NCBI GenBank assembly: GCA_003209655.1
Contig: QCPW01000003.1
Span: 124,001 to 188,000 of the forward strand
Direction: 5' to 3'
Source: Prochlorococcus sp. AG-442-M23
Lineage (GTDB): Bacteria > Cyanobacteriota > Cyanobacteriia > PCC-6307 > Cyanobiaceae
DNA length: 64,000 bases
Part shown: in pieces, positions 1,126 through 35,277 of the stretch
Layout of the letters: the number at the start of each line of letters is the position of its first letter
Numbering within the stretch: the first letter of the stretch is position 1
Notes under the pieces: model-generated
What the model saw: only the letters and a program-made list of their open reading frames with translations
The model's database searches: none
Told to the model about the DNA's origin: nothing
Program-made: the position numbers and the translations under genes

Positions 1126-1830
1126 ATGACTTACAAAAGAGTACTTTTAAAGCTTAGCGGTGAAGCACTAATGGGTGATAAGCCATATGGAATAGACCCA
1201 GCTATAGTCCAATCAATAGCTGAGGATGTAGAGAAAGTTGTTGCAAAAAATATTGAACTTGCAATTGTTGTTGGTGGGGGCAACATATTTAGAGGATTGA
1301 AAGGTTCTGCCGATGGCATGGACAGAGCTACAGCTGATTACGTAGGAATGTTGGCAACAGTTATGAACGCTATTTCCCTTCAAGATGGATTAGAAAGAGT
1401 TGGAGTAGAAACAAGGGTACAAACCGCGATAGAGATGCAAGAAATTGCTGAACCTTACATTAGGCGGAGAGCTATGAGGCATCTTGAAAAAGGGAGAGTT
1501 GTTGTTTTTGGTGGGGGTTGCGGGAATCCATTTTTTACAACTGATACTACCGCCGCATTAAGAGCAGCCGAAATAAATGCTGAAGTTGTTATGAAGGCAA
1601 CAAAAGTTGATGGGGTTTATGATCGTGATCCTAATAAATTCAATGAAGCAAAAAAGTTCTCCTCTCTGAGTTATCAGCAAGTTCTTAGTGATGAAATTGC
1701 TGTGATGGATAGTACTGCTATTGCTTTATGCAAAGATAATAATATTCCCATCATGGTTTTTGATATTTTCAAAAAAGGAAATATCTCCAAAGCTGTTGCA
1801 GGAGACTCTATAGGATCTTTAATAAGCTAA
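1126..1830 (+). CDS. pyrH: Uridylate (UMP) kinase
   Basis: [40 protein letters not shown]. Confidence 0.97.
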
Positions 1831-1858
1831 AGCTTATTTAAATTACTTTTTGTTAATT

Positions 1859-2407
1859 ATGAAAGAACAAGAAATTCAATCAAATATGAATAAAACTGTT
1901 GAAGCCACTCAAAGAAACTTTAATACCATAAGGACTGGAAGAGCTAACGCTTCACTGCTAGACAGAATTAGCGTTGAATATTACGGAGCAGAAACCCCTA
2001 TTAAATCTCTTGCTTCAATAGCAACCGTAGATTCACAAACAATTTCAATACAGCCATTCGATATTTCTTGCTTACAAGCTATTGAAAAAGCAATCTCAGT
2101 AAGTGATTTAGGTATGACACCTAATAACGATGGAAAAGTAATAAGAATAAATGTACCCCCATTAACTGAGGAAAGAAGAAAAGAGTTCTGTAAGTTAGCT
2201 TCTAAATATGCAGAGGAAGGTAAAATTGCCCTAAGAAATATCAGAAGAGATTCTGTTGACAAGGAAAAGAGAGATGAAAAAGAAGGTTTAATTTCAATAG
2301 ATGAATCAAGAGATAATCAATCAGAAATACAAAAAATTACTGACAAATATATTTCTTTAATAGAAACTAAATTATCTGAAAAAGAAAAAGAAATACTAAA
2401 AGTTTGA
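1859..2407 (+). CDS. frr: Ribosome recycling factor
   Basis: [38 protein letters not shown]; follows pyrH; start adjusted to the ATG at 1859. Confidence 0.97.
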
Positions 2408-3537
2408 CAGTATTTGACGTCATTATTATTGGAGGTGGCCTATCAGGATCTTCAACCGCCCTGAATTTATCAAAAAAAGGTTATTCGGTTTTAATTATAG
2501 AAAAGGAAAAATTAGGAGACATTAAACCATGCGCAGGGGGTATGGCATCTTCAATGAAGAAATTTCTCCCATTAAATATAGATCAAGCTATAGAATCTAA
2601 GATTAAAAATGTTGAATTTAGATGGAAGGCATCGGATAATGTTGTCGCTGACCTCTCTGGCGAATCTCCTTTTTGGATAATTAGAAGAGAAAAATTAGAT
2701 CAATTATTACTTGATGAAGCTTTAAAGTATGGTAGCGAGATCATTATGCCCGCCCAGGTAGAAAAAATAACATCACAAAATAAGACTTGGATTATAAATT
2801 GCAGCAATAAAGTTATATATAAATCAAAATTCCTTGTTATTGCTGATGGTTCTCAATCTCGATGGGCAGGACATTTTAAACTAGGTCCGAGAAACCCAAA
2901 ATTTGCAAATACTATAGCCTTAAGATTAAAAGGATTAGGAAATCTACCTAGAGATGCCGCAAGATTTGAGTTTGGATATGTTAAATACGGATTTGCCTGG
3001 GCATTTCCATTAGAAGATTGTGTCAACATTGGCTTAGGAACGTTTATAAATAATAAGGTTTTAAAAGATGATGCCCTTAATAATATAATTATAAAAAGTT
3101 TCGGATTTGAAGATTTATCTTTTAAAGCAATCCAAAAAAAACTTAGAATTTGGAATGGAATACACAAGCTTAATGGGGATAGAGTGGTCGTGGTAGGTGA
3201 TGCAGCTTCCCTTTGCGATCCGTTTTTAGCTGAAGGGATAAGACCTTCTTTAATTAGTAGTCATTATGCTGCAGAAAGTATCGATCAATGTTTAACTTCA
3301 AATAATAATGATTTAAATAATTATTCCGCAAACATTAATAATGAATGGGGGAAATCAATGGCATGGGGAAAGAGAATTGCTCAAATTTTTTATAGATTCC
3401 CTAAAACAGGGTATCAATTAGGGGTAAAAAGAAAAACTGCTCCTAAACGTATCGCTCAAATATTATCAGGCGAAATGAGTTATGAAGATATCGCGAAAAG
3501 AGTTATAAAGAGACTTTTGACCAATAGCGAAACTTAA
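2404..3537 (+). CDS. FAD-dependent geranylgeranyl reductase-family oxidoreductase
   Basis: N-terminal [56 protein letters not shown] start overlapping the frr stop. Confidence 0.85.
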
Positions 3538-3560
3538 CCTTCTTTTTTGATAGATTAAAT

Positions 3561-4562
3561 CTACTTTGCCGAAATTAATTCTTGATTATTAATTTCTGAG
3601 AATCTTTTTAATAATAATTCTTCTAAATCTTCAATTGCTTTACTAAAACCTGTTATTCCCTCACTAAGTTTCTCACTAGCCATTTGATCATCCAACATAC
3701 TTAATCTGAAATCTTTCTCATCAAATTTATAATCAATAGAGCTTTTCGTGTGAGTATTTTTATCTAATTTTTTGATTAAATCCCCTTCTTCTATGCTTAG
3801 TTGATCTAAAAATTTTGGGGCAATAGTAAGAAGGTCACATCCCGCTAATGCTTTTATTTCATCAATATTTCTAAAGCTTGCGCCCATTACTTCAGTTTTA
3901 AATCCTTTCTCTTTGAAGTAATTATATATTTTGGTTACTGAAATAACACCTGGGTCTTCATTTGCTGAAAAATTATCTTTACCTGTTTTTGCTTTATACC
4001 AATCCAATATTCGCCCAACGAAAGGTGAGATTAAGGTAATTTTTGCATTCGCACAAGTTACAGCTTGGCAAAAGTTAAAAAGTAAAGTCAAATTGCATTT
4101 AATACCTTCTTTTTCCAAAATTTCAGCTGCTTTAATTCCTTCCCAAGTTGAAGCTATTTTGATCAAAATTCTTTCTTTATCTATTCCAAAACTTTTATAG
4201 TGATTTATTAACTTTCGCCCTTTTCTAACTGTAGCTTCAGTATCAAAACTAAGTCTTGCGTCAACTTCTGTAGATACTCTCCCTGAAATAAGATTAAGAA
4301 TCTCTTTACCGAAAAATACTGAGACTTGATCAATCGCCTCTTCAATTAAATCATTTTCAGAAAAGCCATTAGGCAAAGATTTCCTAGAACTTTCCAAAGC
4401 TTGATCTATTAATTTTACATAATCCGGATTTTTAGCCGCAGCTAAAATTAGAGAAGGATTAGTAGTAGCATCTCTGGGTTGAAACTTTTTAATAGCATCT
4501 AAATCTCCAGTATCTGCAACAACAGTAGTAATAGAAGATAATTGTTCTAAAATTGACTTCAT
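3561..4562 (-). CDS. tal: Transaldolase
   Basis: [48 protein letters not shown]. Confidence 0.97.
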
Positions 4563-4652
4563 TCCTAGATAATCATATTTATCTTCACGTTAACCTCATT
4601 TTTAAATGAATTCATCAAATGATGAACTAATTAACTAAATAAACGTATAATT

Positions 4653-6404
4653 TCAGGGTTTTTTAACAATTAATCTATCCTTTTGAATTTCTGGAGGTAT
4701 TTTTTCAATAACAATTAGGCTTTCTATGATTTCTTTCGCCACAGGTACTGCAACTGTAGAACCATAAGCATAAGCTTTGGAGGGTTCATCAATAACAACA
4801 AGGACAACATACTTAGGTTTATTTATAGGAAAAGTAGCTACAAAACTACATACTTTCTTACTTGTATATCTTCCACGAATCGCCTTTTGAGAGGTTCCAG
4901 TTTTCCCTCCTATTCTATATCCCTCAATTTTCGCTCCAATTCCACTGCCCTTATTAACAACACTCTCCATCCATTCAAGAACTATTCTTGTTACCTCATC
5001 AGAAAAGATTTCTTCTTGAGAATTATTTTTAAGGTATTGTTTAAAATTTAAAGTAACATGAGGAATTACTTCAACTCCCCCATTTGCGAGAACAGCATGA
5101 AGTTGAGCTAATTTCAACGGCGAGATGGAAAATCCTTTCCCGAAAGAAGCAACTGCTGGCTCAATTGATTGACTAACAAAAATATCTTTTGACTTTAAAT
5201 GACCTGCGGTAGATTCAAATAAATCTGTCTCTAAATTTTTACTAATCCCTAATTTATTAAGCCAATCCCAATAGTTTTTAGGTGGCAAATTTTGCATTAT
5301 TTTTACCATCCCAACATTACTTGAAACTTGTAAAACTTTTGGATAATCAATATATCCATTCCCCTTTTTATCCCAATTAGAAAGGGTCCATCCACCGACG
5401 TTAACCTTACCACTGTCTTCAACCAAGCCATCTTTCTGAATAACTTTTTCTTCTAATGCTAAGGCTAAATTTATCGGTTTAAAAGTCGAGCCTGGTTCAA
5501 ATAAATCTTGTGCATACCAACCTTTAAAAATTTCAGAATTATATTCCCAATATTTATTTGGATCGTAAGATGGAATGGAGGCTAATGACAAGATTTCACC
5601 ATTATTTACATTCATAACTATTGCGAAGCCTTTTTTTGCCCTCCACTTCGTCACATATTTACTTAAAGCTTTAAATGAAGCTTTTTGTAATCTTGAATCT
5701 ATTGTCAAACCTAAACTCTTATAGTCATTTATAAAATCTCTTGGGCCTGAATTATCTGGAAGAGGAGTTCCATCTCCCCCTTTCTTTACCAAATTACTTT
5801 TATTAAGTACTTTAATTTGATTATCCAAGTGCAGTTCTAAACCTGCCGAACCTTTATTATCATAATTAACAAAGCCAATAAGATTTGAATATAAATTGCG
5901 TTGAGGATAATATCTTTGAGAATATTTAACCAGATCCAGACCACTTATATGAAGGCTTTTGATCTTTTTTGCTTGACTCTCTGTTATTTGATCCTGCAAT
6001 TCTATACCTATCATTTTACTATTAAACTTTGACAAGAGAAATTCATCTTTTACTTTTAAAATTGGCGATAATTTATTAACCACTTCCTCAACACTTCTTA
6101 ATCTATTTGTTTTGTCTCCAGAGAAATTAAAGTATTTGGGATGAGCCCATAATTTATAAAGAGGTTTATCATAAGCAATTAATCTATTATTTCTATCAAC
6201 TATTGGTCTTCTACTATTTAAAGAACTAGTTTTAGTAAATTGAATTAATCTTGCTTTTTTTTGCAAGTCAGAAGCACTAAAAACCTGTAAGTTTACAAGC
6301 CTTCCAAAAAGCCCAAAAATTAATATTAAAAAGAATATGTAAGTAGCCTTAAACTTTTGAGCTTCAAGAGGTATCAGATTAACAATTTTCTTATGTCTTT
6401 TCAT
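4653..6404 (-). CDS. ftsI: Penicillin-binding protein / FtsI-type transpeptidase
   Basis: N-terminal TM, FEPGSTFKP (SxxK), SSNVG (SxN), GGKTGTSQK (KTG). Confidence 0.93.
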   Translation of the reverse strand: MKRHKKIVNLIPLEAQKFKATYIFFLILIFGLFGRLVNLQVFSASDLQKKARLIQFTKTSSLNSRRPIVDRNNRLIAYDKPLYKLWAHPKYFNFSGDKTNRLRSVEEVVNKLSPILKVKDEFLLSKFNSKMIGIELQDQITESQAKKIKSLHISGLDLVKYSQRYYPQRNLYSNLIGFVNYDNKGSAGLELHLDNQIKVLNKSNLVKKGGDGTPLPDNSGPRDFINDYKSLGLTIDSRLQKASFKALSKYVTKWRAKKGFAIVMNVNNGEILSLASIPSYDPNKYWEYNSEIFKGWYAQDLFEPGSTFKPINLALALEEKVIQKDGLVEDSGKVNVGGWTLSNWDKKGNGYIDYPKVLQVSSNVGMVKIMQNLPPKNYWDWLNKLGISKNLETDLFESTAGHLKSKDIFVSQSIEPAVASFGKGFSISPLKLAQLHAVLANGGVEVIPHVTLNFKQYLKNNSQEEIFSDEVTRIVLEWMESVVNKGSGIGAKIEGYRIGGKTGTSQKAIRGRYTSKKVCSFVATFPINKPKYVVLVVIDEPSKAYAYGSTVAVPVAKEIIESLIVIEKIPPEIQKDRLIVKKP

Positions 6405-29496: not shown

Positions 29497-29604
29497 AAAT
29501 ATTTTATAAACTTTAAATTATTTTAAGACAAAAATCATAAAGTACGTATAAAGTTTTTAAACTATATTAATAATAGAATATTGATTATTAAGACTAAAAT
29601 ATTG

Positions 29605-30081
29605 ATGGAACAAATTTTTTCAAAATTAAACTTTATAACTAATGGAGAAGGATTCACTGATATTACTAATGATTTAAATTTATTTATACAAAAAAGTAAT
29701 TTTCATTCAGGAGTCTTAAATTTAACATCACTACATACCAGTTGTAGTTTAACTATAAATGAGAATGCAGATCCAAAGGTTCTTAAGGACTTAAAAAAGT
29801 TCATGAAATCTATAGTACCCAATAACTGCTATACATCTTTATCGAAAGATAAAGGAGAAATCTACTATGAACATTTCCAAGAAGGAGAGGACGATATGCC
29901 AGCACATATTAAAACAGCTTTAACTAATACTAATTTGTCTTTGTGTTTTCAAGAAGGAAAAATTCTATTAGGCATATGGCAAGCAATTTATTTATGGGAA
30001 CATCGGTTTAGCCCAAAAGAAAGAAGTATAAGTGTTCATATTATTGGAGAAAAAAGTTCAAATATTTATAATGATAAATAG
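29605..30081 (+). CDS. YjbQ/UPF0047 family protein
   Basis: GFTDIT, SLHTSCSLTINENADPKV, DDMPAHIKTALT, GTWQ-like GIWQAIYLWEHR; likely start ATG 29605. Confidence 0.9.
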   Translation: MEQIFSKLNFITNGEGFTDITNDLNLFIQKSNFHSGVLNLTSLHTSCSLTINENADPKVLKDLKKFMKSIVPNNCYTSLSKDKGEIYYEHFQEGEDDMPAHIKTALTNTNLSLCFQEGKILLGIWQAIYLWEHRFSPKERSISVHIIGEKSSNIYNDK

Positions 30082-30096
30082 CAATATAAAATATTA

Positions 30097-30387
30097 ATGA
30101 AACCATACCTTTTACAAAATGAGGAAGTGAAAGAACTCGTTGCAAAAATACCAGGTTGGGAAATCGCCTCAAATCACATTGAAAGAGAATTTAATTTTGG
30201 CAATTTTATTGAAGCCTTCGCATTCATGACAAAGATTGCTTTAATTTGCGAAAAACATAACCATCATCCCAACTGGGAAAATGTTTATTCAAAAGTAATC
30301 ATTAAATTGTGTAGTCATGATTTAGGAGGTATTACAAATTTAGACCAAACAATTGCTTCAGAAATCAATGAAATTTTTGAAGAATAA
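30097..30387 (+). CDS. Pterin-4a-carbinolamine dehydratase
   Basis: IPGWEIASNHIEREFNF, EKHNHHPNWENVYSKVIIKLCSHDLGGIT. Confidence 0.95.
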   Translation: MKPYLLQNEEVKELVAKIPGWEIASNHIEREFNFGNFIEAFAFMTKIALICEKHNHHPNWENVYSKVIIKLCSHDLGGITNLDQTIASEINEIFEE

Positions 30388-30431: not shown

Positions 30432-31547
30432 ATGCCTGATAAATTGCTTCCTGTTACCATCATTAGCGGGTTCTTGGGTTCTGGGAAAACTACGCTTTTA
30501 AATCACATTCTAAAAAATCAAGTTGGTATTAAAACTGCTGTTTTAGTAAATGAATTTGGAGAGATCGGTATTGATAATGAATTAATTATAAAAACTGGTG
30601 AAGATATGATTGAATTAAATAACGGATGCATTTGTTGCACAATAAACGGTGAGTTATTAAATACTGTTTCTAAGATATTAAATAGGCCTGAAAAAATAGA
30701 TTATTTAATTGTTGAAACGACTGGCCTTGCAGATCCACTTCCTGTAGCCATGACTTTTGCAGGAGGTGATTTAAGAGAAAAAGTAAGGTTAGATTCTATT
30801 ATTACCTTAATAGACGCTGATAATTTTGATTTTGAAATAAATAATTCTAGTATTGCTTACTCTCAAATTTTATATGGCGATATTTTATTACTTAATAAAT
30901 GTGATTTAGTAACTGATGCTCAGCTAAATAAAATAGAAAATCAAATTAACGAGATAAAAAAAGAACCAAGAATTTTGAGATCGATAAATAGTGAAGTCGG
31001 ATTGCAAACAATTATGAGTGTGGGACTTTTTGAAACAGATGCTTTTGAATTTGAAGGGGAAAATAAGAAAAATGAAGATTCACACGATCACTCCTCCCAT
31101 TCACATGACCACTCCTCCCATTCACACGATCACTCCTCCCATTCACACGATCACTCCTCCCATTCACACGATCACTCCTCCCATTCACACGATCACTCCT
31201 CCCATTCACACGATCACTCCTCCCATTCACACGATTTGATCAATAATATAGAGGGATTTACATCAGTATCTTTTAGGGCAAGTGAACCATTTTCTTTGAG
31301 AAAGTTTCAAAATTTTTTAGATAATCAAATCTCAAAAAATGTATTTCGAGCTAAAGGAATTTTATGGTTTGTGGAAAGCGATCGAAAACATATTTTTCAT
31401 TTATCAGGTAAACGTTTTTCTCTGGATGATTGTGAATGGGAAAATGAAAAATCAAATAAAATTGTTTTTATAGGAAAAAATTTAGATCATCAAACTATTA
31501 AGAACCAACTTGATTTTTGTAGATTTAATTCTGAACAGGAAGCATAA
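30432..31547 (+). CDS. CobW/COG0523 family GTPase (putative metallochaperone) with His-rich repeat insert
   Basis: GFLGSGKTTLLNHIL, NEFGEIGIDNELI, CICCTI, LLLNKCDLV; internal (HDHSSHS)7. Confidence 0.95.
   Translation: MPDKLLPVTIISGFLGSGKTTLLNHILKNQVGIKTAVLVNEFGEIGIDNELIIKTGEDMIELNNGCICCTINGELLNTVSKILNRPEKIDYLIVETTGLADPLPVAMTFAGGDLREKVRLDSIITLIDADNFDFEINNSSIAYSQILYGDILLLNKCDLVTDAQLNKIENQINEIKKEPRILRSINSEVGLQTIMSVGLFETDAFEFEGENKKNEDSHDHSSHSHDHSSHSHDHSSHSHDHSSHSHDHSSHSHDHSSHSHDHSSHSHDLINNIEGFTSVSFRASEPFSLRKFQNFLDNQISKNVFRAKGILWFVESDRKHIFHLSGKRFSLDDCEWENEKSNKIVFIGKNLDHQTIKNQLDFCRFNSEQEA
31083..31235 (+). repeat. 21-bp tandem repeat, 7 full units plus partial unit, encoding HDHSSHS
   Basis: cacgatcactcctcccattca repeated in-frame; six units identical, unit 2 has two synonymous changes (cac gat to cat gac). 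Confidence 0.97.
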
Positions 31548-31565: not shown

Positions 31566-33104
31566 TTGAAAATTTTTATTAAACAAACAAAGAATTTATT
31601 ATTGCGGTTGAAGCCTTTAGATATTGCATCAATAATAGTTGCAATTATAGTAATTATTCCAATTTTGAATTTCTTGATTGAAGGGATAAGTTTTGTTTTT
31701 GGCAGAAATTTTTCTTTAGGTAATTCAGGTAGAGAAGAAATAGTTGGTACATTAAAACTTTTAATACTGACAAGTTTTTTGGGTGGTGGATTGGGCACCT
31801 TAAATGGATGGTTACTATCAAATTGCGAATTTAGCTTAAAGAAAACTCTTCGTAAATTTCAACTAATTCCACTAGCAATTCCAGCCTATTTAATAACAGC
31901 AGTATTACAAGATTTAGGAAGTATTTTGGGGTATCAAATAACTGGTATATGGTGGGGAGTTCTTATCCTTTCAATTACTACTTACCCTTATGTTTTCATT
32001 CTTGCTAATGAAAGTTTTAATAAATTTGGGATTAATCAAATAAATGCTAGTAGAGGATTAGGGGTTGGACCGTGGGGAAGCTTTTTTAAAATAGCTCTTC
32101 CAATGGCTCTCCCAGCATTAATAACTGGAATCAGCCTTATGTGTATGGAAGTTATGAATGAATTAGGGACAGTTGAATTGTTAAATATTCCAAGTATTTC
32201 TGTAGGTATAACTGAGAATTGGATTATTGAAGGTAGTCCTAAAAGCGCAGTTGGATTATCACTAGTTGCCTTAACTATAGTTTTTACTTTAATTTTGTTT
32301 GAGAAATTTTCTAGAAGAAAGACAAAACGTTGGAGTGAAAATCCTGCGTCATTAGATTCGTTGGGATTTGAGTTAAAAGGAATTAGGTCAATTTTGGCTA
32401 TTTTAGTCACTTTATTACCTCCTTTATTTTCTCTTGCAATTCCATTTTCTTGGTTTCTGTTAAATATTGATCAGTTAAACAAAGGATTTACTATAGAAGT
32501 ATTATCTCTTACTTTTAGAACTGTCGGTCTAGGAATAATTACTGCATTAGTAACATTAATTTTATCTTTAATTTTAACTCTAGGTAATCGCCAAAATAAG
32601 AACTTACTTATTAGATACATAACATTTCCTGCAGGTATTGGATATGCAATACCTGGAACGGTATTAGCCATATCATTAATCACTATTTCTAATTCAAAAT
32701 TCCATTTTATTGCTATATGCCTTCTGATTTGGGGTTATGTAGTTCGTTTTTTAACTATTTCAAAAGGTGCTCTTGATTCTGGGTTTGAGAGAATATCTCC
32801 CAGCCTTGATGAGGCCGCAAATGGACTTGGCTCTAATTGGCTTGGTGTTATCAAAAAGATACATATTCCACTATTAAAAGGGCCTATATTAGTTGGGTCA
32901 CTTTTAGTATTTGTAGACACCATTAAGGAATTACCAATTACATTTATTTTAAGACCCTTTGACTTTGATACCTTATCTGTAAGGATATATCAATATGCTG
33001 GAGATGAGCGAATTGCAGAAGCCATCTTACCTGCGCTTTTCATAACAGTATTAGGGCTAATTGCATCATTTACATTAATTCCAAACTTAGAAAAAAAAAT
33101 CTAA
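31566..33104 (+). CDS. Two-module ABC transporter permease (iron(III)/FutB-SfuB-like)
   Basis: Duplicated permease signatures: ASRGLGVGPWGSFFKIALPMALPALI and EAANGLGSNWLGVIKKIHIPLLKGPI. Confidence 0.85.
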   Translation: MKIFIKQTKNLLLRLKPLDIASIIVAIIVIIPILNFLIEGISFVFGRNFSLGNSGREEIVGTLKLLILTSFLGGGLGTLNGWLLSNCEFSLKKTLRKFQLIPLAIPAYLITAVLQDLGSILGYQITGIWWGVLILSITTYPYVFILANESFNKFGINQINASRGLGVGPWGSFFKIALPMALPALITGISLMCMEVMNELGTVELLNIPSISVGITENWIIEGSPKSAVGLSLVALTIVFTLILFEKFSRRKTKRWSENPASLDSLGFELKGIRSILAILVTLLPPLFSLAIPFSWFLLNIDQLNKGFTIEVLSLTFRTVGLGIITALVTLILSLILTLGNRQNKNLLIRYITFPAGIGYAIPGTVLAISLITISNSKFHFIAICLLIWGYVVRFLTISKGALDSGFERISPSLDEAANGLGSNWLGVIKKIHIPLLKGPILVGSLLVFVDTIKELPITFILRPFDFDTLSVRIYQYAGDERIAEAILPALFITVLGLIASFTLIPNLEKKI

Positions 33105-34063
33105 ATTCTTCTCAAAAGTTTTCTTAAGAAGAAAGGGAGACCTAAAAATAAATCTGCTGAAGTAGATATCAATCTAAAATAAATTAAACTTACAAGAATT
33201 ATATTTTGAGGAATATTTTTTCCAACAAACAAAAGGAAGCAACTCTCAAATACCCCTACACCCCCTGGTGCAGTTGGTACTATTAATCCAATAGCCCATG
33301 ACAAACAAAAAATTGCCAATAAATAAGAAATACTATAATTAGAATTTAAATTAACTATATAAAAGCAAATAATAAATCCAATAAATTTTGATAATATAAA
33401 AAAAATTTCAATCAAAAAAGCTTTTGCAGGGAAGAAAGAAGTTATTTTGACTCTTTCTTCGAATGGATTTTTTACATTCTTGATTTTTAGAGCACTAGTT
33501 GTTTTACTTTTTAATGTCTCTAAATTTCTCAAAATGAGGTAAATTAATTTTTTATTAAGAAATACCAAAGGTATTAGTAATAATAAATTAAATGGAAAAA
33601 AAAATATGCCAACTGAAGCCAAAAAGAAGGATGAACAAAGCATAAAATAAGGTTCAATTAATGTCGAATAAAAAGCCAATTTAGGATTACTTATATCTTT
33701 TAGGAAGTTATATCTTTCAAAAAAATGCCAAATACCTCCCGGCACATATTTAAGAACGTTCGTCATAATATAAAAGGATTTTAGATTATTTTTATTATTA
33801 GTCTTACCAAACCAAAAAATAATATTTTCCCAAGCTAGAGCATTTAAAAAAACACTTAATATACAAAAGAGAAAAGATAAAAATATATATTTTCCATATT
33901 TAGTAAAATCAACATTAAATGAAATTTGATCAAAATTTTTTAAAAAATGAAAACTGAAATAAGATAAACTTAAAAGAAAAAAAAGTTTCTTTAATATTGC
34001 AAAATCAATATTCTTTAAAACCTTTACGAAAGATATTTTTTGCATATTTAATCTTATTGCCAA
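33101..34063 (-). CDS. Lysylphosphatidylglycerol synthase TM-region/UPF0104-like membrane protein
   Basis: Polytopic; GLIVPTAPGGVGVFESCFLLF motif; YFRLISTSADL. Confidence 0.75.
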   Translation of the reverse strand: MAIRLNMQKISFVKVLKNIDFAILKKLFFLLSLSYFSFHFLKNFDQISFNVDFTKYGKYIFLSFLFCILSVFLNALAWENIIFWFGKTNNKNNLKSFYIMTNVLKYVPGGIWHFFERYNFLKDISNPKLAFYSTLIEPYFMLCSSFFLASVGIFFFPFNLLLLIPLVFLNKKLIYLILRNLETLKSKTTSALKIKNVKNPFEERVKITSFFPAKAFLIEIFFILSKFIGFIICFYIVNLNSNYSISYLLAIFCLSWAIGLIVPTAPGGVGVFESCFLLFVGKNIPQNIILVSLIYFRLISTSADLFLGLPFFLRKLLRRI

Positions 34064-35277
34064 TTTTCTAAAGCTTTAAATTCCCTGCAGGATTCTTGAA
34101 TAATATTTTTTACTTCTTGAGCTGTTTTATTCTTCTCAATTTGTAATCTTAAAATCTCATCATTCTCTGGTTTCATATAAATCGTTCCATTAGGTTTCAT
34201 TGATTGTTTAAACTTAATTTTTCCAAAAGTTGTTATACACTCACCCTTCCTTCTCAGTAAAATCCACCTCGATTGATTTCTTTCTCTTAATCCTATAGTA
34301 GTAGAGTATTTGAACCACAATTCTCTAAAATAATCTTGCTTTTCAACAGGTAAGATAACTTGAAGAGAAATACCTATTCGATTTTTTTTCATATTAATTG
34401 TATGAGAAGAAACATCATAAGCTCCTTCTTTTCTAAATAGTTCCAATAAATTAGATATTTCTTCTGATGTTTGATCATCAATCCATGCCTCTTGAATGCA
34501 AACTTCTTCATATCTTGGACTATTGTTTTGATCTATTAATTTTTCATCATTAGAATTAATTTTTAAAATCCTCACCAAATTTGGGCATGGGAGCTCTAAA
34601 TTACCAATACCTACTCCATACGACTCAATAGAATATTTGTAAGGAAGCTGAAAAGATTCAACCAAATTACAAAGTAAAGCTATTCCCGTTGGAGTTGACA
34701 ATTCTCCCTCTATTGAATCGATACTTGGGATAACCTTAATATTTTTTCCTCTTAATAACTCTATAACCGCAGGAGATGGTATTGATAGTTTGCCATGATC
34801 AGCCTGAATAAAACCTCTCCCTAAAGTTGGTTCATTGCAAAAAACCTTCTTTGGCTTTAAATATTCAATTGAAGTGCACACTCCAATAATATCAACTAAG
34901 GAATCGATTGCACCGATCTCATGAAAATGAACTTCTTCTGGGTTAATACCGTGAACTTTTCCTTCTGCTATGGCTAATGACTCGAAAACTTCGTAAATTC
35001 TTTTTTTTAATTGTTTTTCTAATTTAGCCTTCAGAATTAAATCTTTAATACTACTCCAATCTCTTTTAGTACTTCGATCAACTTTATCCACATCAACCTT
35101 TATTCCTCTGATTGAACAACTTTGAGATTCCTTGAAGTTTAAATTATATTGATTTTCTAATCCAAAACATGCAAGTGTTTTTTCAATTTCAAGTTGAGGT
35201 ACACCTAAGTCATTAAAAGCCCCCAATAGCATATCCCCAGAGACACCAGGAGAACATTCAATTAATATTTCTTCCAT
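34054..35277 (-). CDS. larC: LarC-type nickel insertion protein (nickel-pincer cofactor biosynthesis)
   Basis: IECSPGVSGDMLLGAFNDLGVP, VHFHEIGAIDSLVDIIG, STPTGIALL, single uninterrupted ORF. Confidence 0.9.
   Translation of the reverse strand: MEEILIECSPGVSGDMLLGAFNDLGVPQLEIEKTLACFGLENQYNLNFKESQSCSIRGIKVDVDKVDRSTKRDWSSIKDLILKAKLEKQLKKRIYEVFESLAIAEGKVHGINPEEVHFHEIGAIDSLVDIIGVCTSIEYLKPKKVFCNEPTLGRGFIQADHGKLSIPSPAVIELLRGKNIKVIPSIDSIEGELSTPTGIALLCNLVESFQLPYKYSIESYGVGIGNLELPCPNLVRILKINSNDEKLIDQNNSPRYEEVCIQEAWIDDQTSEEISNLLELFRKEGAYDVSSHTINMKKNRIGISLQVILPVEKQDYFRELWFKYSTTIGLRERNQSRWILLRRKGECITTFGKIKFKQSMKPNGTIYMKPENDEILRLQIEKNKTAQEVKNIIQESCREFKALENWQ

Follow-up and report, generated by a model that had tools for sequence, protein, structure and literature searches.

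The locus described here raises a simple question. How did a GTPase gene of Prochlorococcus come to carry a nearly perfect tandem repeat of histidine-rich coding units in the middle of its reading frame, and what might the encoded segment do? The gene lies in a 64,000-nucleotide (64-kb) stretch of Prochlorococcus sp. AG-442-M23 DNA, referred to below as the window. Its source genome is a draft of 1.63 Mb in 27 contigs, 97.8% complete, and single-cell genomes of Prochlorococcus are its closest named relatives.

The host GTPase

The gene (30432..31547, + strand) is an open reading frame encoding a 371 aa protein of the COG0523 (CobW) family of G3E GTPases. The GTPase domain, residues 7-181 (30450..30974, +), matches Pfam PF02492 (cobW) with an E-value of 5e-57, and the CobW C-terminal domain, residues 276-363 (31257..31520, +), matches PF07683 (CobW_C) with an E-value of 1e-21. 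The motifs expected of a COG0523 G3E GTPase are all present: the P-loop GFLGSGKT (30468-30491, +), the CxCC metal motif GCICC (30624-30638, +) and NKxD. Their core residues, G13, L15, G16, G18, K19 and T20, then C66, C68 and C69, and N155, K156 and D158, are invariant among 37 aligned orthologues and relatives. E. coli YjiA (1nij, 4ixm) provides the only solved relatives found by sequence and also the top fold matches (Foldseek E 4e-21, phmmer E 1e-39, 24% identity). The protein was rejected as a true CobW because its score against TIGR02475, 159.5 bits, is far below the cut-off of 332.1 and it lacks the extra cysteine pair found before CxCC in CobW-type proteins. Its score against ZigA (NF038288), 196 bits, is also below the cut-off of 600. 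A phage origin of the gene was rejected since no relative was found among viral contigs.

The repeat array

The array (31080..31235, +) corresponds to residues 217-268 in frame and consists of seven full SHDHSSH units, (SHDHSSH)7, followed by a partial SHD. Read in the HDHSSHS phase, (HDHSSHS)7 spans 31083-31229 and a terminal HD extends to 31235. TRF calls the array at 31078-31235 with a period of 21, 7.5 copies, 97% matches and a score of 302. Units 1 and 3-7 are identical, TCACACGATCACTCCTCCCAT, and unit 2, TCACATGACCACTCCTCCCAT, carries two synonymous changes, CAC to CAT and GAT to GAC. Each full unit contributes three histidines and one aspartate, so that the seven of them together hold 21 histidines. 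The array contains the HxHxHxH pattern, with gaps of 0-4 residues, by which His-rich COG0523 metallochaperones are recognised. It is the only array of more than two copies that TRF finds in the 64-kb window; the other three have 2.0 copies each and scores of 50-70.

Since Pfam assigns residues 7-181 to cobW and 276-363 to CobW_C, the array lies in the linker between the two domains. In an AlphaFold2 model of the protein (mean pLDDT 74) the domains on either side of the linker, including the C-terminal domain, are confident. Residues 197-272 (31020..31247, +) are below pLDDT 50, residue 248 excepted, and the arm that contains the array is thus predicted to be disordered. The first-pass annotation of this DNA had described seven in-frame units of 21 bp, of which one departs from the six identical others by two synonymous changes, and had placed them between the GTPase and C-terminal domains. 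TRF and the unit listing agree with the former, and Pfam and the structure model with the latter. Its remark that long perfect repeats are rare in these genomes holds within the 64-kb window according to TRF. Open frames that run through the array in other phases were discarded as genes because they are expected of any stop-free repeat whose length is divisible by three.

The GC content of the array is 52%, compared with 31% in the window, and CAC and TCC are used more in its units than in neighbouring genes. Perhaps copying renews old codon spellings more quickly than AT-biased mutation wears them away. Across the arrays, CAC makes up 55% of the His codons; in the genes of the window it makes up 29%.

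Distribution among cyanobacteria

Orthologues were drawn from one genome per species, which gave about 140 Prochlorococcus sequences, and the clade called high-light-type was assigned from sequence relatedness. A COG0523 match at E 1e-50, paralogues counted in, was present in 187 of 200 Prochlorococcus genomes and in all 66 of those that are at least 90% complete. The GTPase gene itself was not found in two near-complete genomes, G210 and G103. Gene loss was rejected here since both also lack the neighbouring phhA gene, and the neighbouring permease gene is absent from G210 and cut off at residue 92 in G103. These absences are most likely assembly gaps.

The SHDHSSH heptad occurs in all high-light-type genomes examined. 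A few divergent genomes have SHDH/SHNH units of 12 or 24 bp (L153-L156) or HHSHEHS (L152). Synechococcus, Cyanobium and filamentous cyanobacteria also have a His-rich linker at this place, built of other units. These include a 12-bp unit encoding HSHD, an 18-bp unit encoding HGHSHE (7.3 copies in Synechococcus AG-670-B23), a 33-bp unit in Microcoleus and 9- to 15-bp units of HDH types in Nostoc. Almost every cyanobacterial orthologue recovered has retained a His-rich stretch at this position. Thus what is conserved is the His/Asp-rich linker, in which the repeat unit has been replaced over time.

Concerted evolution of the units

The probability that two SHDHSSH units are coded identically is 0.76 within a genome and 0.15 between genomes. 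The near-finished genomes alone (n=22) give 0.77 and 0.13, hence the uniformity within arrays was not created by assembly collapse. Eighty of 126 arrays are fully uniform, and there are 31 different majority spellings. Selection on the DNA rather than on the protein was rejected because the spelling differs to this extent between species while the protein unit is kept. Amino acid variants have also spread within arrays, SHEHSSH to five of six units in L022 and PHDHSSH to four in L011. One further array (L118, G118:C2:94300-96100) has four exact copies of SQDHSSL, in which two of the three histidines are replaced, which shows that a unit presumed to be damaged can be fixed by homogenisation.

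The position of variant units within the array is informative. In 86 arrays, 72% of first units and 36% of last units depart from the internal consensus, compared with 23% of internal units. Array edges escape homogenisation, as is typical of repeats that evolve by unequal exchange or slippage. Variants within arrays comprise 53 synonymous and 36 non-synonymous changes; the neutral expectation is 3.16 non-synonymous changes per synonymous one, and the ratio in the arrays is 0.215. These sequence patterns show that the array evolves in concert by slippage or unequal exchange under purifying selection at the protein level. The array had earlier been ascribed to recent expansion by slippage or recombination under coding constraint. 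The homogenisation, the edge effect and the ratio of about 0.2 bear out the mechanism and the constraint. The expansion is not, however, a recent event confined to one strain; all high-light-type orthologues examined have the array, and its turnover is continuous.

Copy number and assembly bias

In near-finished assemblies (at most 6 contigs, n=24) the array has 1-11 units with a median of 6. Across species it is therefore a minisatellite, a set of near-identical in-frame units whose copy number differs between genomes. The first-pass annotation had anticipated such variation, and these 24 assemblies, with one genome per species, show that unit number differs between species and is not strictly constant. 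The median is 3.5 units in drafts of 6-130 contigs and 6 when only assemblies of at most 5 contigs are taken (Mann-Whitney p 3e-5), and the longest perfect run in drafts piles up at two or three units. This pile-up is expected because de Bruijn assemblers collapse perfect repeats that exceed the k-mer (PMC6868369). In addition, a contig ends at or near the array in 6 of 20 near-complete drafts (G084, G091, G112, G140, G155 and G201), where 0.4 of 20 would be expected by chance for a 450-bp target. Given their lower numbers and their contig breaks at the array, counts from drafts are unreliable, and this possibly applies to the seven units of the window as well. The concern about misassembly voiced in the earlier annotation was therefore justified.

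On a tree built from the flanking domains (136 tips), copy number takes 75 changes, compared with 80.6 when shuffled, minimum 74. Phylogenetic signal in copy number is nearly absent, partly because collapsed draft counts add noise.

Neighbouring genes, paralogues and regulation

The GTPase gene is part of an apparent co-directional cluster that begins with a YjbQ/UPF0047 gene (29581..30081, +), assigned by profile matches and synteny. A phhA-like pterin-4a-carbinolamine dehydratase gene (30097..30387, +), a conserved neighbour, precedes the GTPase gene by 44 bp, and the next gene downstream (31566..33104, +) encodes a two-domain ABC permease of the FutB/FbpB-like (iron) type. Synteny shows that the order yjbQ-phhA-GTPase-permease is conserved in Prochlorococcus. 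The best solved relative of the permease is 9j4r, 'Iron ABC transporter permease' (E 4e-35), and no second full-length relative of it was found in the source genome. In several Synechococcus and Cyanobium genomes the permease gene lies within about 4 kb of the GTPase gene; in the flanks examined of most other cyanobacteria, Nostoc and others, neither phhA nor the permease was found. A homologue of LarC (nickel pincer cofactor) is encoded on the minus strand of the window at 34054-35277, and its position near the GTPase cluster is conserved across Prochlorococcus.

The source genome has three COG0523 genes. The paralogue on contig C11 (451 aa) has no array and lies beside a Fur-family (Zur-like) gene, znuC, znuA and a WD40 gene. 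The paralogue on C2 (351 aa) is CobW-like, with 288 bits against the cut-off of 332 and extra cysteines before CxCC. The array protein is neither of these. The window contains 75 Zur-box matches where 80 are expected, hence no excess, and a conserved stretch upstream of yjbQ has no recognisable regulator site. Regulation of the array gene by Zur was rejected on the box count and because the zur-znuC-znuA neighbourhood belongs to the C11 paralogue. For the same two reasons a dedicated role in zinc starvation is unsupported.

Two features of the C11 locus deserve mention. The COG0523 paralogue there (1797-3152, minus, of L230, which is G000:C11:5500-11500) and the adjacent ZnuA (514 aa, 3229-4773, minus) have in common a similar inserted stretch of ~110 residues with 30% identity and a pairwise E-value of 3e-5, and in neither protein does it have a Pfam name. 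It is possibly one metal-related domain shared by a GTPase of the cytoplasm and a zinc-binding protein of the periplasm. The ZnuA of the source genome also has a His/Asp-rich tandem array of its own (L230 4249-4406), which can be read as 5.2 copies of 27 bp at 70% or 1.9 copies of 84 bp at 90%. His-rich coding repeats are thus not unique to the GTPase.

A model for the histidine-rich arm

The array is a minisatellite in the part of a COG0523 gene that codes for the linker, homogenised under selection on the protein, and its product is probably a disordered metal-buffering arm. As the sequence comparisons show, slippage or unequal recombination between the 21-bp units keeps adding, removing and overwriting units, so that the array of each lineage becomes uniform for its own codon spelling, and selection on the protein removes most amino acid changes. 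The arm, predicted to be disordered, is held between the GTPase domain with its CxCC motif and the C-terminal domain, where it could bind several divalent metal ions weakly and reversibly as a local metal store. Metal from this store might load the high-affinity CxCC site, and the GTPase might then pass it to a client protein. A precedent is CobW2 of Cupriavidus metallidurans, an assumed zinc store with a large internal His-rich region predicted to be random coil; one of its conformations binds ~7 Zn(II) (PMC11340326). Not all of the histidines are indispensable, since L118 has four SQDHSSL units and the near-finished G024 has a single unit.

By analogy, the metal of the arm is most likely Zn(II). 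YeiR and YjiA, two COG0523 proteins that lack the additional cysteine pair of CobW, prefer Zn(II) (PMC7895991), and the array protein has CxCC and likewise lacks that pair. Fe(II), Ni(II) or a mixture is possible instead, iron because the adjoining gene encodes a FutB-like iron permease. That the arm serves iron, together with this permease, or nickel, given LarC nearby, and not zinc, is nonetheless unlikely. It would fit the phhA-GTPase-permease order conserved across Prochlorococcus and the linkage within about 4 kb in several Synechococcus and Cyanobium, the iron permease as best solved relative of the only full-length permease of its kind in the genome, and the assignment of the zur-znuA linkage to another paralogue. 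Adjacency, however, is not function, most other cyanobacteria have neither neighbour in the flanks examined, and the reported affinity of YeiR for Fe(II) is 1e-6 M or weaker (PMC7895991).

The model of a selected metal-buffering arm has to be weighed against three other accounts of the array. The differences in copy number could be wholly an assembly artefact, the true number being about the same everywhere; the lower draft median (3.5 vs 6), the perfect runs clustered at two or three units and the contig ends at the array in 6 of 20 near-complete drafts (0.4 expected) are what collapse predicts. Assemblies of at most 6 contigs nevertheless range from 1 to 11 units, with one in G024, three in G040, nine in G108 and eleven in G049, and near-finished arrays differ in their patterns of variant units as well, which makes this account very improbable. 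If real, the variation might be a mutational by-product, in which slippage expands a short His-rich linker whose length is tolerated and whose histidines have no role dependent on copy number. A freely drifting length predicts a copy number almost without tree signal, as seen (75 vs 80.6 changes, with draft noise), and the range of 1-11 units in near-finished genomes and the retention in L118 of units that have lost histidines point the same way. Non-synonymous change in the units, however, is about a fifth of neutral, and the composition of the linker is kept in nearly all recovered cyanobacterial orthologues while unit length changes, so that a pure by-product is a minority reading, though one to be taken seriously. 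A metal-independent role of the arm, in solubility, as a spacer or in protein contact, is also possible.

A stronger form of the buffering model, in which the array is an evolvable dial of metal capacity whose unit number shifts fast within populations and is selected by local metal supply, is speculative and rather improbable. The first-pass annotation had raised the related idea that copy number might tune metal buffering. If the stronger form is true, cells of one species would differ in the size of their tethered metal store, and this variation within species would be hidden by collapse of the array in short-read assembly.

Relation to known systems

Histidine-rich arms in COG0523 proteins are already known. 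According to Haas et al. 2009 (PMC2770081), about 40% of 887 COG0523 proteins carry a His-stretch, with up to 29 histidines in Anabaena Ava_3717. A search of the open-access literature found no description of the array in Prochlorococcus, of concerted evolution of a COG0523 His-stretch across a genus, or of assembly bias at this locus. The array is of interest as a protein-coding repeat that evolves in concert throughout a genus of marine bacteria that are both streamlined and abundant, its amino acid unit nearly fixed while the DNA spelling and the unit number churn. It offers a natural series of one GTPase with 1 to 11 His units in which the function of the COG0523 His-rich arm can be tested. 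It is also a warning that copy numbers, contig breaks and apparent gene absence at this locus in single-cell and draft genomes are often effects of assembly.

The proteins surveyed by Haas et al. 2009 have in common with the array protein the G3E GTPase domain, CxCC, CobW_C and a His-rich stretch. What the array protein has in addition, a near-perfect tandem array of heptad units at the DNA level that evolves in concert, is not described in the passages of that survey consulted here. CobW2 of C. metallidurans resembles it in its internal His-rich region; CobW2 groups with YjiA/ZNG1, and its region is not described as tandemly repeated at the DNA level (PMC11340326). E. coli YjiA has the same GTPase-domain fold and related sequence, to which the Prochlorococcus protein adds the 76-residue array linker. 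CobW (TIGR02475) and ZigA (NF038288) belong to the same superfamily and give strong partial matches, but the array protein remains far under their cut-offs. More distant parallels are the His-stretch of HypB (PMC2770081) and the His-rich loop of ZnuA (PMC8786288), both regarded as a means of storing or concentrating metal close to a high-affinity site. They are different proteins or lie at different positions, and the analogy with the arm of the array GTPase is one of working principle only.
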